Source: an uncultured Paracoccaceae bacterium (GTDB taxonomy: Bacteria; Bacteroidota; Bacteroidia; Flavobacteriales; Flavobacteriaceae). From it: a DNA stretch of 64,000 bases. Below the pieces are notes generated by a model that worked only from the letters and a program-made list of their open reading frames with translations, searched no databases and was not told the origin of the DNA. The position numbers were made by a program, and so were the translations under genes. Of the stretch, positions 1,883 through 41,304 are shown piece by piece (the first letter of the stretch is position 1; every line of letters starts with the position of its first letter). The DNA is taken from contig CALSPC010000003.1 in assembly GCA_943788135.1 (NCBI GenBank), forward strand, positions 186,001-250,000, read 5' to 3'.

Positions 1883-3562
1883 ATGAAAAAACTAAATAAA
1901 TACAGCCAAGCGGTAACTCAAGATCCAACGCAACCCGCTGCACAAGCCATGCTTCACGCTATTGGTTTATCTAAAGCAGACTTCGAAAAACCTTTGGTAG
2001 GAATCGCTAGTACAGGCTATGAAGGGAATCCTTGTAATATGCACCTCAACGACTTAGCTAAACTTGTAAAAGAAGGCACGCTAAACAAAGACGTTGTTGG
2101 GCTTATTTTTAACACTATTGGTGTTAGTGATGGGATTTCAATGGGAACACCTGGAATGCGTTTTTCATTACCCTCAAGAGATATTATTGCCGACTCAATG
2201 GAAACGGTTGTGCAAGCGATGAGCTATGACGGCCTGATTACGGTTGTGGGATGTGACAAAAACATGCCCGGTGCTTTGATGGCAATGATTCGAGTTAACA
2301 AACCTGCCGTTTTAGTTTATGGAGGTACGATTGATTCGGGATGTCATAACGGCAAAAAACTCGATGTGGTTTCTGCATTTGAAGCTTGGGGAAGTAAAGT
2401 TGCAGGCACAATGTCTGAGTCTGAGTTTGAAAAAATTGTTGAAAAAGCATGTCCAGGCGCTGGAGCTTGTGGAGGAATGTATACTGCCAACACAATGGCC
2501 TCAGCAATTGAAGCCCTTGGAATGGCATTGCCTTACAATTCTTCAAATCCAGCTACAGGAGAGGAGAAAAAAAATGAAGCTGTTAAGGCTGGAGAAGCGA
2601 TGCGTATATTGTTAGAAAAAGACATCAAACCCTCTGATATTATTACTAAAAAATCACTAGAAAACGCGATTCGACTTGTAACGATTCTTGGAGGTTCAAC
2701 AAATGCGGTTCTACACTTTTTAGCTATTGCAAGAGCAGCTCAAATACAATTCACCCTAGAAGATTTTCAAAGAATTAGCGATAACACCCCATTTTTAGCC
2801 GACTTGAAACCGAGCGGAAAATACTTAATGGAAGATGTGCATCATGTTGGAGGAATTCCAGCTGTAATGAAATATCTATTAGACAAAGGCTTACTTCACG
2901 GCGATTGTTTAACCGTAACAGGAAAAACTGTAGCGGAAAACTTAGCGGAGGTACAAGACTTGTCAGAAGGTCAAGATGTGATCAAAACGATAGAGGAACC
3001 GATTAAAACATCGGGACACTTACGCATGCTATATGGAAATTTAGCAACTGAAGGTAGTGTTGCTAAAATCACAGGAAAAGAAGGTTTAAAATTTAAGGGC
3101 CCTGCAAAAGTTTTTGAAGGGGAATATGATGCTAATGACGGAATCAGAGATGGTAAAGTCAACAAAGGCGACGTCGTTGTCATCCGTTATGAAGGCCCTA
3201 AAGGCGGCCCTGGAATGCCAGAAATGTTAAAGCCTACCGCTGCCATTATGGGTGCTGGATTAGGAAAAGATGTTGCGTTAATTACGGACGGACGTTTTTC
3301 TGGTGGAACACATGGATTTGTAGTTGGACACATTACTCCTGAAGCTCAAGAAGGTGGAACAATTGCTTTAGTAAAAGATGGCGATACTATAACTATTGAT
3401 GCTGAAACAAATTCCATCCAACTGGAAGTCTCGGATGCGGAACTTCAAGCACGAAAAGCAGAGTGGAATGCACCAGACTTAAAAGTAGCAAGAGGTGTAC
3501 TATATAAATATGCAAGAACGGTTTCATCGGCATCTCAAGGGTGTGTAACCGATGAATTTTAA
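1883..3562 (+). CDS. ilvD: dihydroxy-acid dehydratase
   Basis: 559 residues; third step of isoleucine/valine synthesis, dehydrating 2,3-dihydroxy acids to 2-keto acids. Cluster cysteines are visible in GNPCNMH (about residue 51), GCDKNMPGA and [12 protein letters not shown]. The C-terminal part has GGPGMPEML and the DGRFSGG.HGF signature. I place the start at ATG 1883; an in-frame TTG at 1877 would add two residues but is less likely. First gene of the ilvD-B-N-C-A operon, nine bases before ilvB. Confidence 0.96.
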
Positions 3563-3571
3563 ATTATAACT

Positions 3572-8614: not shown

Positions 8615-10064
8615 CTAAAGCTTTGAGTAGTCCTTTACTTCAGAAACTCTTAAGGTATTAACCATCCCTTTGTCTTTCATTGGCATGGCGGCTAAACTAA
8701 TGACCATATCGTCTGCTTCAACATAGCCCTTGTCATATGCAATCTTATTTACATCATTAATAGTTTGGTCTGTAGACGCAAACTTATCATAATGAAAAGC
8801 ACGAACCCCCCACAATAAATTTAATTGCGAAATAATACGCTTATTTGATGAAAATACGAGGATATGGGCATCAGGACGCCAGGCCGAAATTTGGAACGCA
8901 GTATAACCACTGTTCGTTAAAGTTGAAATGGCACGGGCATTAATTTCATTGGCCATATTTGCAGCATGATAACAAATGGATTTTGTAATGAAGCGCTTTG
9001 TACGGATGTGTGGTGGTCTTTGCGGTACATTAATTAACTCAGAATTTTCAACAGTTTTCAAAATGTCTGACATTCTTTCAATTACTTGAACAGGATATTG
9101 TCCTACAGAAGTTTCACCAGAAAGCATCACTGCATCAGCACCATCCATTACAGAATTGGCAACATCATTAACCTCAGCACGTGATGGTGTGAGGCTATCT
9201 ATCATAGACTCCATCATTTGGGTTGCAATAATTACAGGAATACGTGCCTGTTTAGCTTTTAAAACCAATTGCTTTTGAATTAGAGGTACTTGATGCGCAG
9301 GAATTTCAACTCCTAAATCTCCTCTAGCTACCATCAATCCGTCACAATAGGCTACAATTTTATCTATATTTTCGACCGCCTCAGGTTTTTCTATTTTTGC
9401 GATAATAGGAATCTTGTCAAGAACTATGTTCTGAAATTAAGTCCTGTAACTCCATTAAGTCCTCAGGATGTCTTACAAATGAGAGCGCCATCCAATCCAC
9501 TTCTTGAGAAATTGCAAAAACTGCATCTTCTTTATCTTTTTCTGTAAGTGCAGGTTGAGAGATATCTGTATTTGGAAGGTTGACTCCTTTTTTAGATTTC
9601 AAGGGGCCACCCTGAATTACCTTGGCTTTTACCTCGTCTTTTTGGTTACTAGAAATCACTTCAAAAAGTAACTTTCCATCATCCAATAAGATCCGTTCGC
9701 CTGGATTAGTATCCAAAGGAAAACGCTCATAAGTCATATACACACGTTCTTTAGTCCCCTCGAAACGTTCTCCAGTCGCAAAGATGATTTCATCACCTGG
9801 ATTTACAACCACATCATCTTTCATGACACCAACTCGTAGTTTTGGTCCTTGTAAATCTGCTAATATAGAGGCGTTGTACCCATGTTCTTCATTGATTTCA
9901 CGAATGTTTTTGATGCGTGTTTTCACATCGTCATAGTCGGCATGAGAAAAGTTGATTCTAAACACATTTACTCCTGCTGCTACCATTTTGAGAAGCATCT
10001 CTTTTGAGCTTATTGCGGGCCCTAGAGTAGCAACTATTTTTGTTTTTTTTCTTGTGTATGACAT
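8615..10064 (-). pseudogene. pyk: pyruvate kinase, reading frame broken by an apparent +1 shift
   Basis: Converts phosphoenolpyruvate and ADP to pyruvate and ATP. The first part (10064 down to 9417, 215 residues) has the N-terminal KTKIVATLGPA and the B domain, and ends LISEHSS then TGA at 9419-9417. The remaining protein lies in the +1 frame: KIPIIAKIEKPEAVENI, the MVARGDLGVEIP signature, and the C-terminal allosteric domain to 8615. Reading TCT-(T)-GAC instead of TCT-TGA joins them without loss, giving about 482 residues, full family length. Every domain is otherwise intact, so a sequencing insertion or recoding is more likely than a dead gene. Last gene of the acpP cluster. Confidence 0.85.
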
Positions 10065-27666: not shown

Positions 27667-28537
27667 ATGAAAAATTTCAAAAAAGTTATTTTCTTCACCT
27701 TATTTTTGACACTTTTCTTTGGCTGCTCTAAAGACAGCGCGGACACAGAAGCACCAGTAGAGCCAGAAGTTGTAGAAGCTTACGAGGCCTTAAATGTGGC
27801 TTATGGTTCGGATACAAATCAAGTTTTTGACATCTACCTTCCCAAAAACAGAACCACCTCTACCAAAACACTCATTTTAGTACACGGTGGCAGTTGGGTG
27901 TCTGGAGACAAGGCAGATATGAATGTAATTAAAGCATTTCTTGCAGCCCTTCATCCCGATGTTGGAATTATTAATATGAATTATAAATTAGCGGGTCTAG
28001 GCAATCCGCCATTTCCGATGCAAACCGATGATATCTCAGCGGTAGTAGAATACCTTTCCGAGAACAAATCTTCACTTATTATAAGTGATGATATTGGTTT
28101 TATTGGGGTAAGTGCAGGCGCTCATTTGGCATTGTTATGGAGCTACGCTTATGATGTTGACAATCCAAGTTGACATGGTGTGTAGCATCGTAGGTCCTGT
28201 TAATTTTACAGACCCAGCTTATTATGAGAGCACCAATCCTGAATATCAAGCTATATACCAGTTATTTGGGAATCCCGCTGTAGAATTTTTAGAGTCTGTA
28301 AGTCCATTTCACAGAGCAACGGCAAGTTCGCCGCCAACTCAACTGTTTTATGGCGGCATGGACCCCTTAGTTCCTAGTTCGCAAGGAAATGATATGGCCG
28401 CACGACTTTCCGAACTCGGCGTGACTCATCAGTTTCAATTTTACCCTGAAGAAGGTCACGGCTGGGAAGGTCCAAATCAGGTGGATACGATTACAAAAAT
28501 TTCAACCTATATAGAGACCTATATCGAAGTTGAATGA
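27667..28537 (+). pseudogene. lipoprotein alpha/beta hydrolase (carboxylesterase/BD-FAE type), frame broken by a +1 shift
   Basis: The first frame (27667-28173) has a lipoprotein signal (lipobox LFFGC, Cys20), the oxyanion motif HGGSWVSGDKAD and the elbow GVSAGAHLALL. It ends DVDNPS then TGA at 28171-28173. The rest is in the +1 frame: DMVCSIVGPVNFTDP, the acid region FYGGMDPLVP and the histidine in EEGHGW, to 28537. One base too many near 28165-28171 (CCAAGTTGAC) explains it; without it NPVDMV or NPSDMV results and the protein is about 290 residues with a full triad. The frame around the break is otherwise clean, so the loss is recent or an artefact. Confidence 0.8.
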
Positions 28538-29931: not shown

Positions 29932-30268
29932 TGTTTTTTTCTTAAAACTAATTAAGATTATATGTAAAAATGTTACAAAACTCATAAATTTTTAACAGAT
30001 ATGTTAAAATTATAACTAAAATATTGAGGTTTTAATAGAGTTTAAATCAGGATTTACCATTGCTTTTTAAATGTTAAAGCGGATGAGTGTTCTATAAATG
30101 GATTTAAGAGATTTATAATTTATGACCTATATCGTTGAATTTTTTGTTTCCACAGATCTTTTCATTTTTTGTTTAATATTTAATAAAAATAGTGTTTTTA
30201 TAATTTTACGATGTTATAACGTTAAGCAAAGCTCATAAAACGATGTTCTTAATTCTGCAAAGAGCCTA

Positions 30269-30436
30269 CTATTCATAACAATAGTCATCTCCTTCATTGT
30301 AAGAATTAAATACCTCTTCGCTCACCACCAAGTTTACATCTGCATAGCCATTACGAGGATCATCAGCGTCTGAATTGGAAAGGTCAGAATCCCCTGCTAA
30401 ATGCAAGGGTTTGTAATATATTAAATTGATAAATAA
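30269..30436 (-). pseudogene. C-terminal gene remnant
   Basis: Within the 610-base gap 29932-30541, an open minus-strand frame of about 55 codons without a start reads YYKPLHLAGDSDLSNSDADD and ends SYNEGDDYCYE at the TAG 30271-30269. The acidic composition and clean end look like the last part of a secreted or lipoprotein gene. The rest of the gap left of it (29932-30268) holds only AT-rich sequence without a supportable feature. Confidence 0.35.
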
Positions 30437-30487
30437 TTAAAAAGCTCGAACTGCACGCACATTAGCCAGGGAGGTATACCTCCTTCT
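30437..30487 (-). pseudogene. tiny C-terminal remnant resembling DUF1566 / paralogous-domain proteins
   Basis: About 16 codons ending YTSLANVRAVRAF then TAA at 30439-30437. The end VRAVRAF is what I would expect at the end of DUF1566-type (Fibrobacter major paralogous domain) surface proteins of Bacteroidetes. Only this end remains, adjoining the previous remnant, which suggests deletion of larger genes here. Confidence 0.35.
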
Positions 30488-30541
30488 TTAATTTCAAGGT
30501 CATTAAATTTACTTAATTGAGATTTCACAAAACCTATTCAA

Positions 30542-31792
30542 TTATTTAAAATAATTATTAAAAAAATGAATGTTTATATAGGGGTAATTTAAGTCTTTAA
30601 TTATTTTAATATAATCACTTTTTATTTGTATTTTATTCTTTGTATGACTTTCGTCAGCATGAAGATATATAAGATATAAAGTTCTTATAAAATCCATATA
30701 TCCATCAGTACAATCATTAGGGCTAAATAACTTTTTAAATCTATTTTCATTCAATTTATCTCCCTCCATCCTATAGAAAAATAAACACATTAAAAAAAAA
30801 ATATTTAAATGGAATTTCTGATATAAAAATAAGGTCTTAGGTTCTACTACAATTTTAGATATCAGGGTAGACATTAAAAACCTATTCTTAGTTAAAATAG
30901 CCGCTAAGAACAACTCGAAACTATAATCAATTAAAGTATTTTTTTTTGAATGAATTTTAAAATAATTATTGATAACTAATTCATTATTAAAATTTTTATC
31001 CTTCAAAAAGAATAAAGCAAAAAGTCTACTGCACAAAATTGGATGTAAATTCTTTGAGTAAATCAATTCTAACTTTACTGTTTTTATATTTTTTTTATTT
31101 AAAAAATTCTTAAATTCTAACAATGCATTTGCAAATAATTTTATTTCTGTATTTTTATGGGTACTCTTCACAACTTTCGCAGCATTTCCATAATACCTGT
31201 TGAGATTAGTATAATCTACAAAAGTTGAAAACACAATTTTAATAAAGTTAATATTAGACAGGAGAGCATTGTCAGTTTTGTTGAATGTGCTTAATAAAAG
31301 CCCAATAGAGTTTCCTATGTACAAGATTTCTGAATATGAGAAATTATCGTGTTTAAGGGCTTCTAATTGAAATATTTTATTAATCAGTTTATAATTTTTA
31401 TGATGGAGTAATTCACGTATTAAAATAATTATAAAATTATTGAAGTTTTCACTACTTTTTTTGGTATCATTAATTAATTCAATAATCTCCAATTGATCCA
31501 TTTTAGAAATAATTCTAAAGACTTGGAAATTTAAATTATTACTGTTCTCAAAATTATAGGTTTGTATGAAATGAAAATAGTTATTGTAACCTATGAATTT
31601 AGCTAGAGTGTTTAATGTTTTAGTATTTGGTTTTGTAGACGCATTTAAACCATAGACTCTTTTTATAGTGCTGTAACTTATTTCAACATCCAAAGATTCT
31701 AAAATAGCATCTGATATTAATTGACAGTCTCCTCTAGTTTTTACAGTTCTACCTATTTTAGTTTCTACTAACTTTTTTAAAATGTTTAGCAT
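30542..31792 (-). CDS. AT-rich protein of unknown function, possible N-terminal DNA-binding domain
   Basis: 416 residues, rich in Asn, Lys, Ile and Phe; the DNA is visibly more AT-rich than the core genes. The first 80 residues (TRGDCQLISDAILESL, then ISYSTIKRVYGL and TLNTLAKFIGYNNYFHF) look like a helix-turn-helix-type start seen in uncharacterised Bacteroidetes regulators; the rest is all-helical, possibly repeat-like. It is divergent from the operon that starts at 31871 with only 78 bases between, so it could control that operon. This is inference from position. Confidence 0.5.
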   Translation of the reverse strand: MLNILKKLVETKIGRTVKTRGDCQLISDAILESLDVEISYSTIKRVYGLNASTKPNTKTLNTLAKFIGYNNYFHFIQTYNFENSNNLNFQVFRIISKMDQLEIIELINDTKKSSENFNNFIIILIRELLHHKNYKLINKIFQLEALKHDNFSYSEILYIGNSIGLLLSTFNKTDNALLSNINFIKIVFSTFVDYTNLNRYYGNAAKVVKSTHKNTEIKLFANALLEFKNFLNKKNIKTVKLELIYSKNLHPILCSRLFALFFLKDKNFNNELVINNYFKIHSKKNTLIDYSFELFLAAILTKNRFLMSTLISKIVVEPKTLFLYQKFHLNIFFLMCLFFYRMEGDKLNENRFKKLFSPNDCTDGYMDFIRTLYLIYLHADESHTKNKIQIKSDYIKIIKDLNYPYINIHFFNNYFK

Positions 31793-31870
31793 TTTATATT
31801 ATGAATCAATTATGAATCAAATATAATATTCATATACTATATTTTTAAAAAATAAATTAAATATTTTAGA

Positions 31871-32722
31871 ATGGCAAAAGATTATACAAAATACAAGTTT
31901 GAAGACTGGAAAAAAGGTATTGCAAAATCAAGGATGGTTCAAAAAGTTGTGGAGCACTATGCAAGTACAATGGATATGAATTATGAGGAATTAAAAGAGC
32001 AATGGTGGGATGATATTCAAGGAGGTAAAGGCATTATAAGAAAGGTTTCAGAAATTGATTCAAAAAATGAACGAAATTATTACATAAACGCTCCGATCAC
32101 ATTAAAAGATGGGACCAAAATAGCCGTTTGTAACCAATGGGGAAAAGAAAATTTTTCAAATTTTATTTTACATGCAGGGTTGTTGAATTATAAAATTATT
32201 GCAGATGTTGCAGATGAAAATGAAGTAAGTGACGAGGAACTGACCCAAGAAAAAGTTTCGACAGTTGAAGAAAAGTTAGCAATTCAAGAAACAGTAGAGG
32301 GTTCAATAAATTGGAAGTTGCCACATGCCCTCGCATTTGTTATAAGACATACCATGTTAGCAGATGGAGAGGTAATTGAAGGTGAAATGAATTGGATGCA
32401 TGTTGCTTTTGATGAGTATGACGAACAAGGAATTGCAGTTCGTGATGTATGGGATGACGTAGATAGCCAATCTCAAATTTTCTGGAAAATGGGAAAACAT
32501 AACGCCCTTTTGGTGAACTCTATTAATTTTTTAGCGGATCATCTTGACAACTCTCAAAAATCAAGACTTATTGAAATTCTAATACAAATCTGTGCTCAAG
32601 ATAATTTAATCGCTAAGAATGAGTATGTAACGCTATTGTTGGTTGCTAATAATATTTATGACGGTGCAGCTTATCCTATAAGACAGGTATTAGATAATGC
32701 AGGTTTAACAATAGAAGAATAA
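31871..32722 (+). CDS. protein with DYTKY-type N-terminal domain and TerB-like C-terminal domain
   Basis: 283 residues. Residues 1-110 (MAKDYTKYKFE, then IQGGKGIIRK, DGTKIAVCNQWGKENFSNF) are clearly related to the start of the protein at 33282. Residues about 145-283 are helical with VIRHTMLADGEVIEGEMNWM, resembling the acidic metal-binding helices of TerB-like domains. Function unknown. First gene of a tight run (stop to next ATG zero bases) in the accessory region, divergent from the AT-rich gene at 30542. Confidence 0.55.
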   Translation: MAKDYTKYKFEDWKKGIAKSRMVQKVVEHYASTMDMNYEELKEQWWDDIQGGKGIIRKVSEIDSKNERNYYINAPITLKDGTKIAVCNQWGKENFSNFILHAGLLNYKIIADVADENEVSDEELTQEKVSTVEEKLAIQETVEGSINWKLPHALAFVIRHTMLADGEVIEGEMNWMHVAFDEYDEQGIAVRDVWDDVDSQSQIFWKMGKHNALLVNSINFLADHLDNSQKSRLIEILIQICAQDNLIAKNEYVTLLLVANNIYDGAAYPIRQVLDNAGLTIEE

Positions 32723-33251
32723 ATGAAGAAATTAGAAATAGAAGTATTAGGTTCCATGTATCAAGATTGGGATAATGAAGAATTTAGTTGGGATGTAGAT
32801 AATATCATTAAAGTTAAGGTAGATAACGAACTAGCTATCAATAAACGCTTTGGAGAGTTTACAGTTGACGAAGACGAAACCGATTTGGATAATGGAATCT
32901 ATAAACCAGCTATTTTGCCAAGCTATTATTTAATAGATTATGTCGGTTCTTGTTCTGTTAAAACAGAGTCTGGAGATACTATAACCATACCTTATGCTTA
33001 TTGCAATTTAAAAAGCGAAGGTAACGTAACTATCAAGTACGGTAAATGGCACCTTAAGGGCAGAATTAGAAGTTGAAAATGAATTTAAATTGAGTGATTT
33101 GGTTATTGTTCGTTTAGATAATTTGATTAATGCTATTGAATCTGGTGAACCTGGATTTGCCTCGCTTATATTATTGCCAGGTAAAGGAGCAATTAAGTTT
33201 AATGAAGTTGCTTCCAACGTAAAAGACACTTATGAATGTACAATTGAATAA
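32723..33251 (+). pseudogene. small acidic protein of unknown function, frame broken by a +1 shift
   Basis: The first frame (32723-33076, 117 residues) starts MKKLEIEVLGSMYQDWDNEE directly after the previous stop. From about 33030 the +1 frame is open and reads VNGTLRAELEVENEFKLSDL on to a TAA at 33251. The natural protein would be about 175 residues, with the join near YG/VNGTL: dropping one G of TACGGTAAATGG at 33041-33042 restores it. The two halves have matching acidic composition and codon use. No family recognised. Part of the operon 31871-38595. Confidence 0.6.
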
Positions 33252-33281
33252 ATTTTAAAACAAAAAAATAGACAAAATATT

Positions 33282-34535
33282 ATGGCAAGAGATTATACAA
33301 AATATACCGTAGAAGGTTTAGGAGAAAACCTTAACAAAAGGCAATTAGTTTTTGCAATCGTAAAAGATTGGGCAGCTAAGAATAAACCTTCCTTAGAAGC
33401 ATTACAAACCGCTTTTCCTGATAGTATTCAGGGAAGCAAAGGCGTTATTGCTAAAAAAGATGCAGGCGTAAAAGAAAGGGACTTCTATATGGATGCGCCT
33501 TTCACTTTATCGGATGGAACAGCAATAGTTGCTTGCAGACAATGGGGAAAAGATAATTTCCCTAATTTTCTTAAACATGCCGAAACTTTAGGATATACAA
33601 TTATTTCCCAAACAAATACCACAACAGAAAAAGTAAAGGAATCGCCAGCGGCTAAACCTGAAACCTTAAAGGAAATAAACATCAATATCAGCGGTTCTAT
33701 AACAAATTATATGTTTGGACTTTTAGGAGATGAAGCTTATGCTGAGTGCGAAAAAGCAATGTCTTTTGCCATAGATGATGATATTGAAACTATGGAGGAG
33801 TTTGTAAAAATGTATTATGAAACAACCTTGTACGGTGGCGATGGCATGGAGATATTTAAGGAAAGTATTGATATGGAAAAATTCAATTCAAATTGCCCTT
33901 TATTATCCAATTTTTTAGCCACAGTTGAGGAAGGTGATGCAGGTCATCTTCAATTTTATGAAGAGATTTTGGATATGAATTTAAGAGATGAGGTTAACTT
34001 TATAGAAGATGATGCTGCCATAACTATCACTGTAGATGGAGAAGAAATTGTACCACAACAAAAGTTAGTTGATTTTTTGGGTGAAATAGAATTATTTGTA
34101 GAGGAAGATGACGACCCTAAAGCTGTAGCGATGGTAAAAGCTTTTTGGGATAAAAATGGTGCTAAATTCAATATGGAAGATAGAGATGAACATACTATTA
34201 ATAAAGCTGAAAACGGTGTGCTATTACTTCCTGAATGGATTGAGCCAACAGGTTTAGCCGCTTACAATACTCGCGAACGCAACATAACAGCTGAACATGA
34301 TAATATAGTTGATTTTGATTTCTACTTTAAAGCAGCTGATTTTGATGTATCAAAATTAGCCTTTTTTGGTTTTGCTAATACTGATTTTCACCACTCATTC
34401 CCCGATTATGTTGGTAGTTATTTAGCATACGACAATAATATTATACGACCAGACCAGAATATACATAGAGATAAGGGCTTTATTTTACATTATGAAGACA
34501 ACGCTAAATCTTACAATTATTTGATTGAAGGCTAA
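33282..34535 (+). CDS. protein with DYTKY-type N-terminal domain, unknown C-terminal region
   Basis: 417 residues. Residues 1-110 (MARDYTKYTVEGLGENLNKR, then DSIQGSKGVIAK, DGTAIVACRQWGKDNFPNF, AETLGYTII) match the first domain of the protein at 31871, so the two are paralogous by domain. The remaining 300 residues are very acidic (for example FVEEDDDPKAVAMV) and end with an aromatic-rich section. No family recognised. Its last base is the first base of the next gene, so translation is coupled. Confidence 0.55.
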   Translation: MARDYTKYTVEGLGENLNKRQLVFAIVKDWAAKNKPSLEALQTAFPDSIQGSKGVIAKKDAGVKERDFYMDAPFTLSDGTAIVACRQWGKDNFPNFLKHAETLGYTIISQTNTTTEKVKESPAAKPETLKEININISGSITNYMFGLLGDEAYAECEKAMSFAIDDDIETMEEFVKMYYETTLYGGDGMEIFKESIDMEKFNSNCPLLSNFLATVEEGDAGHLQFYEEILDMNLRDEVNFIEDDAAITITVDGEEIVPQQKLVDFLGEIELFVEEDDDPKAVAMVKAFWDKNGAKFNMEDRDEHTINKAENGVLLLPEWIEPTGLAAYNTRERNITAEHDNIVDFDFYFKAADFDVSKLAFFGFANTDFHHSFPDYVGSYLAYDNNIIRPDQNIHRDKGFILHYEDNAKSYNYLIEG

Positions 34536-34978
34536 TGAAATTACTTTTTATAGATTTAGATGGTGTTGTGGCAGACTTTGTGTCTGCCATGAACACGCAT
34601 CCTAAAAAAGAGATTTCACCTTATGATGAGCACCCAGATACTATACCCCACATTTTTAGAGATTTAAAACCAATAAAAGGTGCTATAAAAGCCGTAAATA
34701 TACTTTTAGATGCTACTAATTATAACGTTTATTTTTTATCTACAGCGCCATGGGACAATCCATCGGCTTGGACCGATAAACGCCTTTGGATTGAAGAACA
34801 ATTTGGTGAAAAAATTAACAGAAAATTGATCTTAACGCATCGAAAAGATTTGGTTAAAGGCGATATATTAATTGATGATAGACCAAATAACGGAGCAAAA
34901 GACTTTGAAGGAGAACTGATTACATTTGGTTCTCATAAATATCCCAATTGGGATGCTGTATTACATTATTTAGTATGA
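34535..34978 (+). CDS. 5'(3')-deoxyribonucleotidase-like HAD phosphatase
   Basis: 147 residues. The HAD nucleophile motif is at the N-terminus, FIDLDGVVADF (the two aspartates of DxDG/V type); motif II is in FLSTAPW, the lysine in ILTHRKDLVKGD, and motif III is LIDDRPNNGA. The family (NT5C) hydrolyses nucleoside monophosphates. Its stop overlaps an ATG that starts a truncated copy of the DUF2779 gene beginning. Its role here could be nucleotide clean-up linked to the nuclease genes, but that is inference. Confidence 0.75.
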   Translation: MKLLFIDLDGVVADFVSAMNTHPKKEISPYDEHPDTIPHIFRDLKPIKGAIKAVNILLDATNYNVYFLSTAPWDNPSAWTDKRLWIEEQFGEKINRKLILTHRKDLVKGDILIDDRPNNGAKDFEGELITFGSHKYPNWDAVLHYLV

Positions 34979-35043
34979 AAGCACTATGTAAATCTCGATT
35001 TAAACAAGGCTTATATTATTCCCAGGTACACGGGGGTGATTAA
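34975..35043 (+). pseudogene. truncated duplicate of the DUF2779 gene start
   Basis: ATGAAAGCACTA at 34975 starts a 22-codon frame (MKALCKSRFKQGL, then YYSQVHGGD and TAA). Its first 39 bases match the start of the gene at 36245 in 36 positions. It overlaps the HAD gene stop as ATGA, the arrangement expected if DUF2779 originally followed directly. After the match the sequence is unrelated. The DNA between (35044-35132) holds nothing else I can support. Confidence 0.75.
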
Positions 35044-35132
35044 TTTCTCACAATTAGTCTAAAATATCTGAATAATTAAATGAAAAATGATGCTTTTGAT
35101 CACAACTATAAACTTAATTAAACTAAAAAGGA

Positions 35133-36227
35133 ATGAGTAACTATTTAAAGATTATGGATAATCTTGTCCAGAATCCGTTTACCTCTATACACGTTATTGA
35201 CAAAGAAAAGTTTCATACAGGGATGCTTAAACTACTGTTAGAGTATTGTCAAGCTAACAATATCGAACATAAACTATTTAAAAATAACACTTTACATAAG
35301 CTAGAATGTGATTTAGAAACCAAGTCGGTTGACTTGTTAGTTACGCAAGTAAGTCATACAAAAGAAATCCATATAACTATAATTGAGGCTAAGTTTAAAA
35401 CAGGTTTGCATGTGACTGATTATAAAAACAAAGTTGTGTCTCAAATTCAAAAATACGCATATACGCATCCAGAAGCAAGTGAGGGTATAGTAGTTTCATT
35501 GTTTAAAGAGAGTACAGATTTAAGTATAGAAAAACATGAATTTATTAAGCAGTTCAAAAACATCACATTTACAAATCAGGTGTTAGATTTGATAAATAAA
35601 GCACTTAAACATTCCAATAAAGATTCTATTCATGTTTATAATCTTCTTGTTATATGGGGAAATTATCTGAAAGATTTAAAGGGTATTGTTAATGAGTTTG
35701 AAAAGCAAAAACTAAATTTAATAGCTATTGAAAATTTAAAAGCCAATTTACAGAAACTTAGGTTAAAAGGAGTTTTTCAGCAATATCGAATGAACTTAGT
35801 TAAAGAAAAAGTAGATAAGCTTATTAATTCAGATAAAATATCTAAAGGTAAATTGGGGAATACCCATGGTAATGCTTTTTTGCATCATGAAATAACATTT
35901 GGAAAAAACGATTTTAACTTTGAAAAATATGGTATTCAATGGCAAAATGGAAAGCTTAAATTTTATATAGAATTAAAAAATAAAGGAAATAAAATTGAGC
36001 GAAGAGATTCAGCTCTTGAAGAAATTGGAACTTTCCTGCATAATAATTTTTTTAAGGAAAACGAACTACCAAAAAATGTAAAAAGAAACGGAAAATTTAA
36101 GTCTTTTAATATTGCTAAAGTTGAAGAATTTTCAGATTTAAATATATTGCCAAATCAAATGGCTGATAGTTTAAATTATTTAGTGAATAATGCAGAAAGA
36201 ATTTTAGAATTTACTGCACAAAATTAA
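35133..36227 (+). CDS. PD-(D/E)XK nuclease superfamily protein
   Basis: 364 residues. The likely catalytic core is Asp67 in SVDLLV, then Glu85 and Lys87 in TIIEAKFKTG, preceded by a helical start (FTSIHVIDKEKFHTGMLK), as in the PDDEXK_4 type of predicted restriction-like nucleases. The C-terminal part (220-364) is lysine-rich and may bind DNA. It sits between the two copies of the DUF2779 start, so it looks inserted. No methylase partner is near. Target unknown. Confidence 0.7.
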   Translation: MSNYLKIMDNLVQNPFTSIHVIDKEKFHTGMLKLLLEYCQANNIEHKLFKNNTLHKLECDLETKSVDLLVTQVSHTKEIHITIIEAKFKTGLHVTDYKNKVVSQIQKYAYTHPEASEGIVVSLFKESTDLSIEKHEFIKQFKNITFTNQVLDLINKALKHSNKDSIHVYNLLVIWGNYLKDLKGIVNEFEKQKLNLIAIENLKANLQKLRLKGVFQQYRMNLVKEKVDKLINSDKISKGKLGNTHGNAFLHHEITFGKNDFNFEKYGIQWQNGKLKFYIELKNKGNKIERRDSALEEIGTFLHNNFFKENELPKNVKRNGKFKSFNIAKVEEFSDLNILPNQMADSLNYLVNNAERILEFTAQN

Positions 36228-36244
36228 AATTATCTTTTCAATAA

Positions 36245-38242
36245 ATGAAAGCACTATCAAAATCACGATTTAAACAAGGCTTAGAGTGCCCAAACAAACT
36301 TTATTTTTCAAACAATAAAGAAGTGTATCATAATGTGAAAAATGAAGACCCGTTTTTGCAAGCCCTTGCAAGCGGTGGTTTTCAAGTTGAGGAATACGCA
36401 CGATTACAATACCCTGGTGGTGTCTTAATTGAAGATCCACAAGACCGAAAAATCTATGATTACCAAGATTTGGCAGACCAAACATCTGAGCTTCTAAAGC
36501 ATGAAAATGTGGTAATCTATGAAGCCGCTTTTTATATCGATGATTTATTCATAAGAACAGATGTTCTTGTCAAAAAAGGGATTCATATTCAGCTCATAGA
36601 AGTTAAGGCAAAATCTCTTGACCCAAGAGAAAACTACAATTTTGTGGGAAAGTCAAAAAAAATAGTGAGCAGCTGGAAGCCCTATCTTTTTGATTTGGCT
36701 TTTCAAACCTATGTTACAAAACTTTGTTTACCTACCTATACAATTACTCCATATTTATGCTTGGTTGATAAAACAAAATCTGCAACTGTAGATGGATTAA
36801 ATCAGTTTTTTAGAGTCAAAAAAGACCCTAATAACCGAACCGGTGTAAAGGTTAAAATTGATGATATAAGCCAGCTGGGTGAAAATATATTACATCAAGA
36901 AAACTTATCTGAAGTGGTTTCAAAAATACATAATGGAGATTATACGTATTATGATAATTTAAACTTTCATGAAGCTGTAAAGTTATTATCAGAGATTCGC
37001 ATGCAAAATTATTATCCAAACTGGCCTGCTCAATTTTCGGCTTGTAAAAAATGTGAATTTAAAAAAGACGATAGTGAGAAAGGTAAGATAAAACAATCTG
37101 GATTTGAGCATTGTTTTAAAACACAATACCAATGGACAGACCAGGATTTTAAAAACCCCACTATTTTTAATATTTGGGATTTAAAAGATCCAAAATTAAT
37201 GGAGCAAGGCAAGTTGTTTAAATCACAGCTCACACCAGAAGATATTAAATACAAAGAGGCGGCCGGAAAACTTAGCCGTACAGAGCGTCAATGGTTACAA
37301 ATTGAAAAAGAACGTAATGATGATTTTACCGAGTTTGTTGATATAGAAGGTTTAAAAGCCGAAATGGACACTTGGGTATATCCACTTCATTTTATTGATT
37401 TTGAAACCTCTACAGTGCCACTACCGTTCCATACGGGTCGTAAACCCTATGAGCAAATAGCCTTTCAGTTTTCACATCATATTTATCATGAAGATGGCCG
37501 TATAGAACATGCAAACGAATATATAAACGCTACTGCTGGCGAGTTTCCAAATTTTGAATTTGTTGAATCTTTGCAACAAGCCTTATCAAAGGATGAAGGA
37601 ACTATTTTTAAATTTGCGACCCACGAAAATACGATACTCAATGCCATTAGAGCGCAACTCAAAGCCAGTGATGCCTCTAACAAAGAATCACTTATTTCAT
37701 TTATTGAAACTATTAGCCATCCCACAAACGACAATCCAGACCCTTGGATAGTGCCAACAAGAAAACAAAACCAGGGTACACGAGATATGGTAGACCTTTG
37801 TAAGGTAATTATTAAGTACTATTACAACCCTAATACTTTTGGTTCAAATTCCATTAAAAAAGTGCTGCCTGCCGTGTTAAAGTCTAGCCAGTTTGTTCAA
37901 AAAAAATACAGTAAACCTATTGGAGCCATTGCGGTGAGCAGTAAAAACCTTCCAGATGATCATATTTGGCTAACAAAGCGGGAGAACGAAATTATTAGTC
38001 CCTACAAAACCTTACCTCCAGTATATGACAATATAAGTCAAGAAGAGATTGAAGCTAGATTGTCTAACATTGAAAATGTTGATGATGGAGGAGCTGCACT
38101 AACAGCCTATGGAAAGACACAGTATACCGATATGACTGAAAAGGAAAGACAAGACATATCAGATGCATTAAAACGTTATTGTGAGTTAGATACCTTGGCG
38201 ATGGTGATGATCTATGAACATTTAAAATCAATAGTGAAATGA
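36245..38242 (+). CDS. DUF2779 protein: Cas4-like nuclease plus DEDD-like exonuclease domain
   Basis: 665 residues. The N-terminal half has a PD-(D/E)XK core (Asp106 in IRTDVLV, Glu119 and Lys121 in IEVKAKS) and four cysteines at about 15, 267, 270 and 290, the layout of Cas4/AddB iron-sulfur nucleases. From about residue 380, HFIDFETSTVP followed by QIAFQFSHHI resembles an RNase H-like 3'-5' exonuclease (DEDD), the DUF2779 region. It is thus a two-nuclease protein. It overlaps the next gene by four bases. Function unproven. Confidence 0.75.
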   Translation: MKALSKSRFKQGLECPNKLYFSNNKEVYHNVKNEDPFLQALASGGFQVEEYARLQYPGGVLIEDPQDRKIYDYQDLADQTSELLKHENVVIYEAAFYIDDLFIRTDVLVKKGIHIQLIEVKAKSLDPRENYNFVGKSKKIVSSWKPYLFDLAFQTYVTKLCLPTYTITPYLCLVDKTKSATVDGLNQFFRVKKDPNNRTGVKVKIDDISQLGENILHQENLSEVVSKIHNGDYTYYDNLNFHEAVKLLSEIRMQNYYPNWPAQFSACKKCEFKKDDSEKGKIKQSGFEHCFKTQYQWTDQDFKNPTIFNIWDLKDPKLMEQGKLFKSQLTPEDIKYKEAAGKLSRTERQWLQIEKERNDDFTEFVDIEGLKAEMDTWVYPLHFIDFETSTVPLPFHTGRKPYEQIAFQFSHHIYHEDGRIEHANEYINATAGEFPNFEFVESLQQALSKDEGTIFKFATHENTILNAIRAQLKASDASNKESLISFIETISHPTNDNPDPWIVPTRKQNQGTRDMVDLCKVIIKYYYNPNTFGSNSIKKVLPAVLKSSQFVQKKYSKPIGAIAVSSKNLPDDHIWLTKRENEIISPYKTLPPVYDNISQEEIEARLSNIENVDDGGAALTAYGKTQYTDMTEKERQDISDALKRYCELDTLAMVMIYEHLKSIVK

Positions 38243-38595
38243 ATTTAGAAATTGAACTTCCTGTATTCATAACACCATTAATGAAAAAATGGCTATTGCA
38301 ATATAAATTTGACACAATAAAAGAGATTACAACTTTAGGATTGTTTCATTGGGATTTCAGACCAAATAGGCGGAAACCTGAAAAACCAAGAAGAATCCCC
38401 AGATTAGGAGAAACGTGTAAACTTATAGAGTCAAATTTTAAAAGAAGCATCTATTTCTTGAAAATTGATACTACAACCTTGCATGTATTTGAGAGTTCTG
38501 GGCCAAGCTTAGCTGGATTAAAAATTGCGAAAGAATATATTTTTGAAGGCGAAAAATTTACTGTAAAAAGTGTTTTACTTAAGTATATAAGTTGA
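38239..38595 (+). CDS. small protein of unknown function at the end of the nuclease operon
   Basis: 118 residues; it starts at an ATGA overlap with the DUF2779 stop, so it is translated from the same message. It has an N-terminal LEIELPVFITPLMKKWLLQY and a basic middle (RPNRRKPEKPRRIPRLGE), which could bind nucleic acid. No membrane segment. Not recognised. Confidence 0.55.
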   Translation: MNLEIELPVFITPLMKKWLLQYKFDTIKEITTLGLFHWDFRPNRRKPEKPRRIPRLGETCKLIESNFKRSIYFLKIDTTTLHVFESSGPSLAGLKIAKEYIFEGEKFTVKSVLLKYIS

Positions 38596-38701
38596 CAACA
38601 AATAATTATTTACAATAATAATTTTGGAGACTTATAGATATCGATGTTGTTAGAGAAAGAACAAGCAACCTTCAACTTTAGTGTGTCTTTAGGAAAAAGA
38701 A

Positions 38702-38830
38702 ATGGATATAATTCAGTGCGGCTGGTCCAACTATCGAATGTCTGAGAAGTCTCTTATTGATTATATGGAGAGACGTATTAGAGGTGAGAAAGTGAAGTTT
38801 CCCGATGACTACTTCCCTTTCGGAATCTGA
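38702..38830 (+). other. short open frame, 42 codons, doubtful
   Basis: MDIIQCGWSNYRMSEKSLID, then YMERRIRGEKVKF, ending DDYFPFGI and TGA. A second short frame in another phase precedes it from the ATG at 38644. It is overlapped by an opposite frame at 38809-38937. Either may be a remnant of a larger gene. This lies in the 740-base gap 38596-39334, whose other contents are listed separately. Confidence 0.25.
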
Positions 38831-38937
38831 TTTTTCATCTCAGATAGAATTCTCTTATCTCTTTCTACCCTAAGATTACCCATTAGTGACTTAACTTGAC
38901 CCTCTGCAAGGATTACAACCTTTTTCTTTGATTTCAT
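38809..38937 (-). other. short open frame, 42 codons, doubtful
   Basis: Minus strand, ATG at 38937: basic product with KSKKKVVILAEGQVKSLMGN and LRVERDKRILSEMK. Its upstream side is the 59-bp repeat, which could act as its promoter region. It could be the start of a lost transposase or regulator; nothing confirms this. Confidence 0.25.
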
Positions 38938-38948
38938 TTGACTTATTT

Positions 38949-39007
38949 ACTAATAAATAGTCCGTCAAAAGAGGAAATTGTGCTGCAACTTTGAATAATA
39001 GGGGGAG
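38949..39007 (+). repeat. 59-bp direct repeat, copy 1
   Basis: Starts AC TAATAAATAG TCCGTC and ends with TAATAGGGGGAG. It matches 40289-40347 in 58 of 59 bases (G/A at 38971/40311). The two copies are 1340 bases apart and bracket the lipoprotein esterase unit. Confidence 0.9.
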
Positions 39008-39021
39008 CAACATATAATGAT

Positions 39022-39056
39022 AAAACGGTTATACTTTTATAGTGTAGCCGTTTTTT
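39022..39056 (+). terminator. possible terminator next to repeat copy 1
   Basis: AAAACGGTTA (39022-39031) pairs with TAGCCGTTTT (39045-39054), with one G-U pair, and is followed by more T. It may end leftover transcription from the operon to the left. Confidence 0.55.
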
Positions 39057-39265
39057 AATTAAAAGACCCCAGTCAAACACCCTCAGTTATTAAGTGGAGA
39101 TCTCCCAGTGATTATTAGAACATTTTAAAATAGTTTGAAAAAGGTTAAAGTTTCTTTGTCGTCAGTTTCATTATATTTGAATTAAAATGATAAAAGAGAA
39201 CAAAAGTTCCTTTTATCCGGAAACATAGACCTATAAACAGGAGATTTATTCCACATATAAGGGGA

Positions 39266-39275
39266 GTTGGCGGTA
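39266..39275 (+). repeat. cassette boundary, left half (GTTGGCGGTA)
   Basis: Exact inverted counterpart of TACCGCCAAC at 40149-40158. The pair flanks the esterase gene 39335-40126, like the ends of a gene cassette. GTTGGCGG beside AT-rich sequence is distinct from its surroundings. Confidence 0.55.
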
Positions 39276-39334
39276 ATTTTATTATACCTTAGATTATTAC
39301 AATAGTCTAAGAAGTAATTTTTAAAAAGGAATTT

Positions 39335-40126
39335 ATGATGAGTAATATTTTTACAAGTTTACTAATGGTGGTGTTTTTGATTTCATGTGACAAAGATGAT
39401 CAAACTGGAAACCAAGAACCAAATAATCCATTAACTGAAAGCTTAGTGGAATTAGGAATCAAATATGGTTCAGAAGACAGGCAGTTTTTGGATTTGTATA
39501 AAGCTGAATCTGATTGTCCAACACCGATTTATTTTGATGCACACGGAAATAATGGAGATACCGAAATTCCGGATTCACTCGTAGAGGATTTACATGCTCA
39601 TGGTATTACAATCATTGCTTGGGAATCGGTAACTGTTGTAAGTACAACTGAAGAAACCTTAACAGGTTGGAGCGATGCAGAACTTATGTTTCAATGGGTC
39701 ATTGACAATGCAGACACTTATAACTTGGATACATCCAACATGATTATAGGTGGTTCATCTCGAGGTAGTATCATCAGTTGGATATATGGTCACAGACCTA
39801 ATACTAATATTAAAGGACTTTATATGTACAATGCATTACCCAATCCAGCTTGGGCATCACCAGGTTCTTGGCTACCAACTGATAATGTGACTATAGAATC
39901 GCCACCAATTTATTTTGTATATAACAGAGAACCTGGTTCATCTTCTGACCCTATTGATCCAAATTTTCACGACCCAAATAATGGAATAATCATAGTCAAT
40001 AAATATCAAGATTTAGGCATTGGAGATAAGGCTACCCTTGTCCATAGTATAGGACAAACAAATAATACAGATAAATATCAATTTCTTGTTGATTTTGCAT
40101 TATCAGTAATTGAAACTTGTCCGTAA
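39335..40126 (+). CDS. lipoprotein alpha/beta hydrolase (esterase-like)
   Basis: 263 residues; starts MMSNIF, so the second ATG could be used. Lipobox LISC gives a lipidated Cys near 18, followed by an acidic Sec-exported tail. DAHGNNGDTEIPD resembles an oxyanion loop, GGSSRGSIISW is the nucleophile elbow (Ser near 149). No certain acid or histidine is seen; HSIGQTNN near the end may carry the histidine. It is a surface or periplasmic hydrolase of unknown substrate, not closely similar to the broken esterase at 27667. It sits in a cassette-like unit. Confidence 0.65.
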   Translation: MMSNIFTSLLMVVFLISCDKDDQTGNQEPNNPLTESLVELGIKYGSEDRQFLDLYKAESDCPTPIYFDAHGNNGDTEIPDSLVEDLHAHGITIIAWESVTVVSTTEETLTGWSDAELMFQWVIDNADTYNLDTSNMIIGGSSRGSIISWIYGHRPNTNIKGLYMYNALPNPAWASPGSWLPTDNVTIESPPIYFVYNREPGSSSDPIDPNFHDPNNGIIIVNKYQDLGIGDKATLVHSIGQTNNTDKYQFLVDFALSVIETCP

Positions 40127-40148
40127 AAATAATTGTAAATAAAATAAC

Positions 40149-40204
40149 TACCGCCAACAATGTGTATAGTGCATAGCTACCCTTCGGGATACGCACCATA
40201 CACA
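40149..40204 (+). repeat. cassette boundary, right half, with long hairpin
   Basis: TACCGCCAAC (40149-40158) is followed by an imperfect hairpin: TGTGTAT (40161-40167) with ATACACA (40198-40204), inner GTGC with GCAC, and CCC with GGG at the tip. AGAACGTTAT follows. The layout recalls attC-like recombination sites, but the boxes do not match the integron RYYYAAC/GTTRRRY consensus exactly. Confidence 0.6.
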
Positions 40205-40288
40205 GAACGTTATCCAAATTTTTGGAACCAAGGGATCATCAATCCACTTCCTTCAAAATTAGAGGAAGTTTACGGACGTTTCTTACTA

Positions 40289-40347
40289 ACTAATAAATAG
40301 TCCGTCAAAAAAGGAAATTGTGCTGCAACTTTGAATAATAGGGGGAG
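40289..40347 (+). repeat. 59-bp direct repeat, copy 2
   Basis: Same orientation as 38949-39007, one mismatch. It begins 85 bases after the hairpin and is followed by the 177-residue gene. Confidence 0.9.
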
Positions 40348-40404
40348 GGGAAATCAAAATTCAAACATCTCAATCTCCTTATTTTAATTTATTAATTTTG
40401 ACTC

Positions 40405-40938
40405 ATGTCAAGCACTAATTCAAAAGATAAAAACAACCCTCAGAAAAGAATAGAATATAGAGGGGAAACTGTCCGAGTTTCAAGAACGGGAGGTGTTTCT
40501 GCAACGAAAACATTTAAGGGTGATGGAGTTGGTGCAACCATTAATACAAAACACGGACTTCGTCTTCATAAAGGATTATTTAAGGGGGCAAGAATGGGGT
40601 TTCAAAACAGTAACTTTCAATTTATTGGAAGATACAACAGTGGTCCATTCAATTTCAATGTTTCAAAAAACGGATTTAGTACATCCCTAAAAAACAAACG
40701 AGGTTCCTATAACATCTTTAAACCCAATTATTCCAGTTTCAAATTAGGAGGTGTTCAAGTTAGAGCGAAAAACGCTGCTACGTTTCAAATGATCTACATG
40801 TTGATCATTCTCTTTGTTAATTTCATTAAAGTAATTTGGCACATTTTCATCTCTATTTTGTGGTTTGGTTTCTTGTCAATAAAATGGATTGTAGATTTTA
40901 CGATTGGATTTTTCAAAGGTGTTAGAGAAGTTAACTAA
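40405..40938 (+). CDS. unknown protein with C-terminal membrane segments
   Basis: 177 residues. The first 120 are basic and polar with glycine/asparagine patterns typical of beta structure (RVSRTGGVSATKTFKGDG, then GRYNSGPFNFNVSKNG). Two hydrophobic helices follow (about 127-148 and 152-170). Resembles DUF4236-type layouts only loosely. TAATTTTG at 40393-40400 matches a -7 box but is only five bases before the ATG, so the message would be nearly leaderless or the start lies further in. Confidence 0.5.
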   Translation: MSSTNSKDKNNPQKRIEYRGETVRVSRTGGVSATKTFKGDGVGATINTKHGLRLHKGLFKGARMGFQNSNFQFIGRYNSGPFNFNVSKNGFSTSLKNKRGSYNIFKPNYSSFKLGGVQVRAKNAATFQMIYMLIILFVNFIKVIWHIFISILWFGFLSIKWIVDFTIGFFKGVREVN

Positions 40939-41003
40939 AGTCACTGGTAACTTAAGAGATCTACACAATATGACTTACTTTAAAAATTAACATCTTAACC
41001 ATG

Positions 41004-41034
41004 CACATTTGTTTGCAATTTGCAAACAAATGTG
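41004..41034. repeat. 31-bp perfect palindrome
   Basis: CACATTTGTTTGCAA (41004-41018), centre T, then TTGCAAACAAATGTG (41020-41034): a perfect 15-bp inverted repeat. No T-run follows, so it is not a typical terminator; it may be an operator or recombination site. No gene is seen in 40939-41198. Confidence 0.85.
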
Positions 41035-41198
41035 ATAAAAAGAACAAATATTGGACAATATTGACAAAAATCTAATGATGCATAAACATGGAGTTGTCTT
41101 AAGTATGAGGTGGGTATTTATGAATAATAAAAGATTAAAAGGAAATTAATAATTAATTAACTGTTCAATATCAGTTATTTACATTTAATATAATTCAC

Positions 41199-41227
41199 AA
41201 AAAAACCACCCTGAAATAGGATGGTTT
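41199..41227 (-). terminator. terminator of the tRNA gene
   Basis: On the minus strand AACCATCCT pairs throughout (one G-U) with AGGGTGGTT across ATTTC, followed by a T-run. It lies just after the tRNA 3' end. Confidence 0.8.
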
Positions 41228-41230
41228 CTG

Positions 41231-41304
41231 TGGTCCCACGAGGACTCGAACCTCGGACCCTCTGATTATGAGTCAGATGCTCTAACCAACTGAGCTATGG
41301 GACC
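41231..41304 (-). tRNA. tRNA with anticodon CAT (tRNA-Met; tRNA-Ile2 not excluded)
   Basis: Minus strand. Acceptor GGTCCCA pairs with TGGGACC, discriminator A. D arm AGCTCAGTTGGTTAGAGCA, anticodon stem TCTGA with loop CTCATAA, T arm CGAGGTTCGAGTCCTCG. The anticodon CAT serves elongator Met, or Ile2 if the C is lysidinylated. The accessory region lies on its 3' side, a common integration site arrangement. Confidence 0.95.

Follow-up and report, generated by a model that had tools for sequence, protein, structure and literature searches.

A candidate modular defence operon with a repeated N-terminal domain in a marine flavobacterium

Background

Polymorphic toxin systems have a constant N-terminus and a variable C-terminus, with recombination at the junction, and the partners found in Shango are an ATPase and a helicase. 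TerB is contained in the defence systems Shango, Bunzi and Dionysus, according to the available parts of PMC10952713 and PMC12926258. In EAD-coupled conflict systems, as set out in PMC7159879, neighbouring genes each carry a copy of one small non-enzymatic domain joined to a different partner, adjacent copies are closer kin, one copy is attached to an NTPase, vWA or STAND component of the core, and extra copies track the core. Family F.17 of DUF2779 combines a DUF83/Cas4-like part with an RNase H-like 3'-5' exonuclease (PMC3985635, available part). The excerpt of PMC7373297 merely lists a DUF2779 gene among mutants, and that of PMC13092281 mentions HAD phosphatases in defence. PDC-S11 and PDC-S57 of PADLOC (the meaning of PDC is given in the available part of PMC11514479) are single genes with a C-terminal domain, here called DYTKY, which in PDC-S11-type proteins follows a nuclease-like part. 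No counterpart multi-gene defence system was found in the literature searched.

The stretch of DNA analysed in this study (the window) is 64,000 nucleotides long. It carries an operon of a marine flavobacterium that we consider, with a probability of about one half, to be a previously undescribed system of modular build directed against phages or mobile elements. Nucleic-acid processing or defence had been suggested in the initial annotation, and the DYTKY homology, the neighbours of gene F, the surrounding island and the exchange of modules, all read from sequence, support that suggestion. Relatives are designated below by locus (L) and genome (G) numbers.

Results and discussion

Organization of the operon

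Seven co-directional genes, A to G, occupy 31871-38595, all on the plus strand, with the regulator-like gene REG as divergent neighbour (Table 1); every ORF was found where the initial annotation had placed it. Its description of the spacing as overlaps or very short gaps was inexact, since the gaps from A to G are 0, 205, -1, 154, 17 and -4 nt. The same gene set was found again in other genomes, so that the arrangement is more than a chance one.

Table 1. Positions in the window of the operon genes and associated features
Feature	Position	Strand	Description
Accessory island	30033..41229		Between conserved flanks; ends at 3' end of tRNA-Met
Unit common to window and L019	30477..38721		96-97% DNA identity, different genomic context
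REG	30542..31792	-	Divergent 416-aa protein, putative regulator; HTH-like N-terminus by eye
A	31871..32722	+	DYTKY domain (1-112) and acidic TerB-fold module
B	32723..33076	+	117 aa; reading frame broken in window
C	33282..34535	+	DYTKY domain and 305-aa acidic module
D	34535..34978	+	HAD phosphatase, NT5C (5'-deoxynucleotidase) family
E	35133..36227	+	PD-(D/E)XK nuclease, PDDEXK_4-like, in variable slot
F	36245..38242	+	DUF2779 protein, Cas4-like PD-(D/E)XK and DEDD exonuclease domain
G	38239..38595	+	Small basic protein; 4-nt overlap with F
tRNA-Met(CAT)	41230..41304	-	Island border

Gene B had been passed over in the initial annotation. Its product has 117 aa in the window and 175 aa in the 4 relatives having B, and the gap after B is 28-30 nt in the 3 B-bearing relatives with a next operon gene; the 205-nt gap between B and C is thus explained by a frameshift of B in the window. 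G is small and basic (pI 9.7), as had been noted, and its relatives occurred only in these operons among the loci searched.

Searches with A-G gave no NTPase, vWA or STAND match, and the operon differs from Shango, Bunzi and Dionysus in that no ATPase or helicase was found in it. Membership of a CRISPR-Cas system was considered because F is Cas4-like; a PADLOC scan of 8 proteins gave neither Cas1 nor Cas2.

Enzymes encoded by D, E and F

The assignments of the three enzymes in the initial annotation were borne out. D, a nucleotidase-like HAD protein, matched Pfam NT5C (1.5e-17), and residues D7, D9, T70, K104, D114 and D115 were invariant across 12 sequences. E aligned with PDDEXK_4 proteins, and D67, E85 and K87 were invariant in 8/8; this alignment supplied the motif, and the view of E as an orphan nuclease was dropped. 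The sequence of E alone gave nothing credible in Pfam, PADLOC or PDB, and its PDB profile search was empty even after the PDDEXK_4 alignment. F matched Pfam DUF2779 (8.7e-22), in agreement with a Cas4-like plus DEDD protein. Its PD-(D/E)XK residues (D106, E119, K121 and Q154), four cysteines (C15, C267, C270 and C290) and DEDD residues (D385, E387, D517 and D649) were each present in at least 95% of 24 sequences. Replacement of the nuclease motifs, named beforehand as contrary evidence, was not seen in relatives. F has the make-up of family F.17 as given in the available part of PMC3985635, and what sets the operon apart is the recurring D-F-G set.

The DYTKY domain

A and C have in common an N-terminal domain (residues 1-112, identity about 43-44%), as had been proposed. 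DYTKY proteins mostly start with MA(K/R)DYTKY, and no hydrophobic segment was noticed by eye. The domain is called non-enzymatic on the sole basis that no catalytic motif was recognised in it. Its predicted model had no PDB match, and a winged helix or other known fold was dropped as an identification (best E value 0.62 with Foldseek and 0.75 by sequence).

Profile comparison identified a homologue of DYTKY at the C-terminus of PDC-S11 and PDC-S57, which are themselves candidates. At E 0.1 or better, PDC-S57 was matched by 28/28 DYTKY domains (best 1.8e-17) and PDC-S11 by 22/28 (best 1.8e-6). When five full proteins with a distant C-terminal DYTKY were scanned, 3 matched PDC-S11 at 1e-111 or better, and the same 3 gave a weak, sub-cut-off match to the PD-(D/E)XK nuclease family NucS_C. 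A lone DYTKY gene in phage Dulem virus 37 is overlapped by a PDDEXK_4 gene. The operon differs from PDC-S11 and PDC-S57 in that DYTKY is N-terminal, the modules attached to it contain no recognised nuclease, and the nucleases are separate genes; no DYTKY fused to D, E or F was found in the loci examined. DYTKY occurred in one record each of plasmids and phages and at one locus of viral contigs (L057).

The recurrence of DYTKY in neighbouring genes, each time with another partner, resembles the EAD-coupled systems of PMC7159879, as does the kinship of non-A copies, which were more alike within operons (identity 0.68 vs 0.55, reached in 49/10,000 shuffles of 18 non-A domains with 14 within-operon pairs). 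A-type domains had no such likeness: those of A and C in the window have the identity given above and A-type domains a mean of 68%. Unlike the systems described there, the operon showed no NTPase/vWA/STAND core, none of its DYTKY copies is joined to a core component, and lone DYTKY copies occur without the nuclease core.

C-terminal modules

DYTKY is the constant N-terminus in 16 loci, and the C-terminal modules differ. The 29 modules fell into nine sequence groups at E 1e-3, and all 29 were acidic (pI 4.1-4.6). Acidic proteins are not unusual in the window: among its 52 ORFs with at least 120 aa, 5 besides C had a pI, taken over the whole protein, that did not exceed 4.6. Modules similar to that of C were present in L019, L020, L023 and L031, and the C-termini of A and C gave no nuclease match. 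The TerB-like end ascribed to A was recovered in its AlphaFold model, which matched PDB 2h5n, presumably a TerB-type protein (Foldseek probability 1.00, E 0.04); the match of A to Pfam TerB was below the cut-off (E=0.013). This fold is a point in common with the TerB-containing defence systems, from which the operon differs in that TerB is only one of nine module groups in the same position.

Distribution and exchange between relatives

The operon is patchy, being found in 2/249 family genomes with the window's own counted. Because patterns were used to scan the genome contigs (53 stretches, 19 relatives, 17 loci), the counts are lower bounds; L023=L044, L024=L045, L033=L039 and L034=L042 were counted once. 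Many of the host genomes are incomplete or partly contaminated. D lay downstream of fused DYTKY in 11/16 loci, and D and F, in this order, in 8/16. Downstream of fused DYTKY, L020, L032 and L046 had no intact D or F, both of which are present in the genome of L046 (G252) on a different contig; at L030 and L031, D is present and F is missing. A pattern of scattered genes never found together, held in the initial annotation to speak against a common system, was not seen in relatives; F and lone DYTKY genes were also found apart from the operon. Accessory genes of L028, L030 and L031 carry a GLNP motif, a uracil-DNA-glycosylase-like feature; Pfam and PDB profile searches gave no support for that assignment, and it was dropped.

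Comparison of the window with L032, L021 and L019, at high identity, revealed sharp swaps between near-identical operons: the C-terminal module of A was exchanged in one and the E-bearing stretch in another. In the unit common to the window and L019, the part 34952-36239, which holds E, was unaligned. These four loci have near-identical parts in common and are not independent. Proteins that keep one domain and swap the other half between strains would be expected of immunity caught in an arms race. We tentatively propose that the repertoire may arise by recombination, with DYTKY segments as shared homology for swapping recognition modules, the slot between D and F swapping the nuclease, and D, F and G kept constant. 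The operon appears to be like polymorphic toxin systems only in this way of diversifying; no secretion or trafficking part was noticed by eye and no paired immunity genes were recognised.

Plasmids gave no near-identical match to the operon. Homologues of D were common in viral contigs (37 loci), and F was not found there in a scan that reaches close relatives only. Recombinase-like fragments were seen by eye on the flanks of L019.

The island at tRNA-Met

Besides the operon, the island carries two genes (39335-40126 and 40405-40938). Homology to relative G262 (L112) ends at about 30032 and restarts at 41230, the site being 614 nt long and almost empty in G262 vs 11,197 nt in the window. Other cargo occupies the same site in L115, L116 and L120. 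No convincing direct repeats of tRNA-Met were present at the far end. The island is mobile-looking, tRNA-adjacent and patchily distributed, consistent with the mobile-element context anticipated for the operon.

Neighbours of F outside the operon

Away from the operon, F often adjoins defence genes when compared with control positions, in line with the co-occurrence with defence islands for which a search had been proposed. The neighbours included dCTPase, dGTPase, Drt3a/b (DRT3) and Wadjet JetABC. AbiEii lies next to a diverged F gene. At 1e-15, 51 F-neighbour proteins matched 63 PADLOC families (the first 25 listed) and 51 control proteins matched 5; these are families and not proteins, one reverse transcriptase matching many of them, and 2/5 control families, mad3 (1e-87) and mad8 (2e-34), also bear defence-protein names. 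Ten F-neighbour proteins were picked by eye, and the 51 were not.

Controls were 13 positions chosen by the authors on the same contigs, 80-200 kb from F, and the F set comprised 13/18 F-only loci. The contigs of L094, L100, L108 and L109 were too short to accommodate a control position, and these loci were excluded; so was L110, whose diverged F is the second copy of a genome that was represented in the set. Dus genes were dropped as control sites since conserved synteny would bias the comparison. None of the 18 F-only loci examined yielded D, G, REG or DYTKY.

REG and lone DYTKY genes

REG had no significant Pfam match, and its identification as a known regulator was dropped when the PDB profile search gave no match. 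The window's own genome has a second REG homologue, beside a lone DYTKY gene. In the genus, 9/9 lone DYTKY genes are divergent to a REG homologue within 241 nt, and REG lies upstream in 8/16 fused-DYTKY loci; it was not found on the sequence examined at L020, L021, L025, L027 and L030. Lone REG-DYTKY pairs without F occurred in 5 of the 18 genus genomes searched (completeness 73-99%; G123, 99%), and D was also absent in 4 of these 5. With the nuclease set taken as core, F was absent from 5/8 DYTKY-bearing genus genomes, small numbers from mostly incomplete genomes. These pairs in F-less genomes indicate that DYTKY probably has some role without the nuclease core.

In a serious rival, though an unlikely one, the operon would again serve defence, with DYTKY as the ligand of REG: the sensor modules would make DYTKY free REG from its operator, and the nuclease operon would be turned on upon infection without contact between DYTKY and nuclease. 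The constant pairing of lone DYTKY genes with REG, its place upstream of half the fused loci and the pairs in F-less genomes argue for this explanation. Against it, PDC-S11-type proteins and Dulem virus 37 both link DYTKY to a nuclease, with no REG noticed by eye beside either in the stretches examined, and the five loci named above show no REG on the sequence examined.

Proposed function

For the modular defence system that we favour, we infer that the constant 110-residue DYTKY domain, tied in other proteins to PD-(D/E)XK nucleases, would connect the nucleolytic core with whichever of its exchangeable acidic partners (the TerB fold or one of the eight remaining sequence groups) has been triggered. 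The modules would most likely sense an invader or its effects; E and F would cut and degrade DNA, D may dephosphorylate released nucleotides or ends and thereby prevent their reuse by the phage, and REG would govern expression. The REG-DYTKY pairs in F-less genomes, the fused loci lacking D or F, the want of any fusion of DYTKY to D, E or F and the candidate status of PDC-S11 and PDC-S57 themselves speak against this reading.

Stress or DNA-repair roles have been proposed for Ter-type systems, and with the TerB fold in A and D, E and F being general nucleic-acid enzymes, the operon could serve to clean damaged DNA, island-borne and not directed at phages. This is improbable, as the 2/249 spread, the module swaps and the variable E slot are unlike repair genes and F adjoins defence genes. 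Least probable is a module of the carrier element in which acidic DYTKY proteins act in counter-defence as DNA mimics or decoys against host nucleases and E and F serve the element, for although the acidity of 29/29 modules, the recombinase-like fragments (by eye) beside L019 and the viral D homologues would suit it, the operons come with nucleases of their own, viral contigs gave no F in a scan that reaches close relatives only, and plasmids gave no near-identical match.

If the defence reading is correct, the operon would be a multi-gene defence system whose diversification is visible in a constant coupling domain, swappable modules and a swappable nuclease. It would also give a testable meaning to DYTKY, for which the only matches obtained were defence candidates consisting of one gene, and would point to DUF2779 as a recurrent neighbour in defence islands.

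Operon organization and encoded enzymes

The seven plus-strand genes (A to G) and the divergent putative regulator gene REG lay where the initial annotation had placed them, and the N-terminal domain it had described as common to A and C (DYTKY) showed 44% identity over about 112 residues. From A to G, the intergenic distances were 0, 205, -1, 154, 17, and -4 nt; the overlaps or very short gaps reported for the operon thus applied to all junctions except those of 205 and 154 nt. The 205-nt gap follows B because B is frameshifted in the window, as indicated by a 175-aa relative that aligned to the window DNA in two frames. B was 175 aa long in L019, L021, L027, and L029, four loci of relatives, and the next operon gene was 28–30 nt away in the first three. 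Two further genes in the window, named by eye, were each split into two ORFs (Table), and the hydrolase-like gene encoded 288 aa in two relatives, G261 and G263. These split ORFs hint at base-calling errors in the contig, and therefore the frameshift in B may be a sequencing error.

Features located in the window and in related loci
Feature	Record	Position	Strand	Remark
Accessory island	Window	30033-41229		Ends at tRNA-Met
Pyruvate kinase-like gene	Window	8615-9337 and 9417-10064	-	Two ORFs
BD-FAE-type hydrolase-like gene	Window	27667-28173 and 28112-28537	+	Two ORFs
First block aligned with L019	Window	30477-34951		97.2% identity
Second block aligned with L019	Window	36240-38721		96.4% identity
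PDDEXK_4 gene overlapping lone DYTKY gene	L047	2060-3318		Phage Dulem virus 37
Small-protein gene beside DYTKY-type gene	L029	11938-12663
Small-protein gene beside DYTKY-type gene	L054	2343-2699
Five tandem units of ~391 nt	L120 (G123)	2480-4403		Just past tRNA-Met

The nuclease and nucleotidase motifs earlier proposed for D (NT5C-type HAD phosphatase), E (PD-(D/E)XK nuclease), and F (DUF2779 protein) were retained in alignments of relatives. Residues D7, D9, T70, K104, D114, and D115 of D were invariant across 12 sequences; D67, E85, and K87 of E were present in all 8 aligned proteins, PDDEXK_4 members among them; and in F, the Cas4-like residues D106, E119, K121, and Q154 with C15, C267, C270, and C290, as well as the DEDD residues D385, E387, D517, and D649, were shared by at least 95% of the 24 sequences aligned. 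The putative catalytic residues are those typical of these folds. PMC3985635 regards members of the DUF2779 family as probable 3'-5' exonucleases that also contain a DUF83 nuclease part.

Related operons and exchange of modules

DYTKY fused to a C-terminal module was found at 16 loci (the window, L019–L032, and L046), with one to four fused proteins per operon. D was located downstream in 11 and a REG homologue upstream in 8. F followed D on the same strand, directly or after E, in 8 loci, and G followed F in 6 of these 8; the F gene was broken in L019 and ran off the contig in L023. L028 had a diverged F on the opposite strand, L030 and L031 had D and no F, and neither was found downstream of the fused DYTKY in L020, L032, and L046; L026 and L029, where genes were also absent, end close to a contig edge. 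Within the genus, DYTKY occurred in 8 of 18 genomes; F was absent from 5 of the 8, one of which (G263) carried a distant D homologue elsewhere.

The modules fell into 9 groups at E 1e-3. All 29 modules, near-identical copies counted, had a pI of 4.1–4.6, and the attached DYTKY domains a pI of 7 or more in 21 cases; as background, whole-protein pI was below 4.8 in 7 of 52 window ORFs of at least 120 aa, A and C included.

The window and L032 shared 96.3% DNA identity across REG and the DYTKY of A, with similarity lost just after residue 125, beyond which L032 carried a different module; L032 also retained a 66-nt remnant of D. L021 matched the window at 94.2% through A and B and 141 nt into C, after which the second protein differed; identity in D and F was only 72–74%. 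The two blocks shared with L019 (Table) were separated by a region without alignment, where the E of L019 was a protein of 32% identity. The two DYTKY genes of L025 were 99.6% identical for 270 nt and then diverged, and L035 had a 19-residue DYTKY remnant ahead of D–F. DYTKY identity was 0.68 within operons versus 0.55 between them (49/10,000 shuffles; n = 18, A-type domains excluded).

Genomic island

The site occupied by the island was 614 nt in relative G262, and the three further genus members with enough sequence there had different cargo at the tRNA-Met, including a recombinase fragment in L115 and a recombinase-like ORF in L120 (named by eye). The almost identical operon of L019 adjoined recombinase fragments, and of the nearest one the window retained the first codons only (both by eye). 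An att repeat was looked for without success. At the same hotspot, each tandem unit of L120 contained one 119-aa ORF, GIY-YIG-looking by eye.

Distant relatives of DYTKY

The structure of DYTKY was predicted confidently (pLDDT 91, pTM 0.82) as mixed alpha/beta, and the model matched no PDB structure (best E 0.62). All 28 DYTKY domains matched the C-terminal part of PDC-S57 and 22 that of PDC-S11 (E 0.1 or better), both PADLOC defence candidates. Matches in a phylum sample came from 6 of 395 genomes, one of them that of the window. In four of the remaining five, the domain was C-terminal in proteins of ~290–335 aa; in the fifth (L054), an unlike protein with a membrane-like segment matched weakly. 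When these four and one Pantoea plasmid protein were scanned against PADLOC and Pfam (n = 5), four scored on PDC-S11 and/or PDC-S57, the L052 protein passed none of the PADLOC models at 1e-4, and a weak, sub-threshold Pfam match to NucS_C was seen in three. The overlapping genes of Dulem virus 37 lay between portal and terminase genes. Together with the NucS_C matches, they indicate that DYTKY is repeatedly tied to PD-(D/E)XK nucleases. One apparent small-protein family (by eye) lay beside DYTKY-type genes in L029 and L054, loci otherwise unlike.

Neighbourhoods of F and D

Of 249 family genomes, 23 carried an F homologue at 1e-10, and in 17 of the 23 its E value fell below 1e-100; the genome of the window is counted here. 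D, G, REG, and DYTKY were undetectable in the sequence examined around F in all 18 F-only loci. Neighbours of F matched dCTPase, KAP-type PifA/QatA, dGTPase, Drt3a, Drt3b, JetA/B/C, and WYL, with a weak match to part of E1-E2 proteins and an AbiEii match beside a diverged F; the unselected neighbour set contained Drt3a and Drt3b three times each and WYL six times. The 51 proteins adjoining F (13 loci) matched 63 PADLOC families at 1e-15, whereas a control set of 51 proteins, taken from 13 other positions in these genomes, matched 5 families, of which mad3 (1e-87) was strong. L092 (G099) is a case against a defence context: its DUF2779 gene, 77% identical to F, lay amid housekeeping-looking genes without D, G, or DYTKY. 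Relatives of D were common in viral contigs (37 loci, L136–L172; up to 52% identity); therefore, D may have been exchanged with phages.

Proposed function

No description of this operon was found in our search of open-licence papers. It agrees only in part with the definitions of PDC-S11 and PDC-S57, themselves candidates only, and of EAD-coupled conflict systems. We consider a defence or conflict function of the locus probable, at roughly three in four. In the mechanism we favour, with less confidence than the function itself, the exchangeable modules would act as sensors, DYTKY would couple them to a constant nuclease core, and D would prevent nucleotide reuse. A serious rival is a REG-release switch instead of DYTKY-nuclease coupling, for which the existence of lone REG-DYTKY pairs speaks: all nine lone DYTKY genes in the genus were divergent to REG, at most 241 nt apart. 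The window's own genome had a third, lone DYTKY gene that adjoined a second REG homologue. By kind, the operon would be a modular conflict system, and under either DYTKY-nuclease coupling or REG release its role would be defence.
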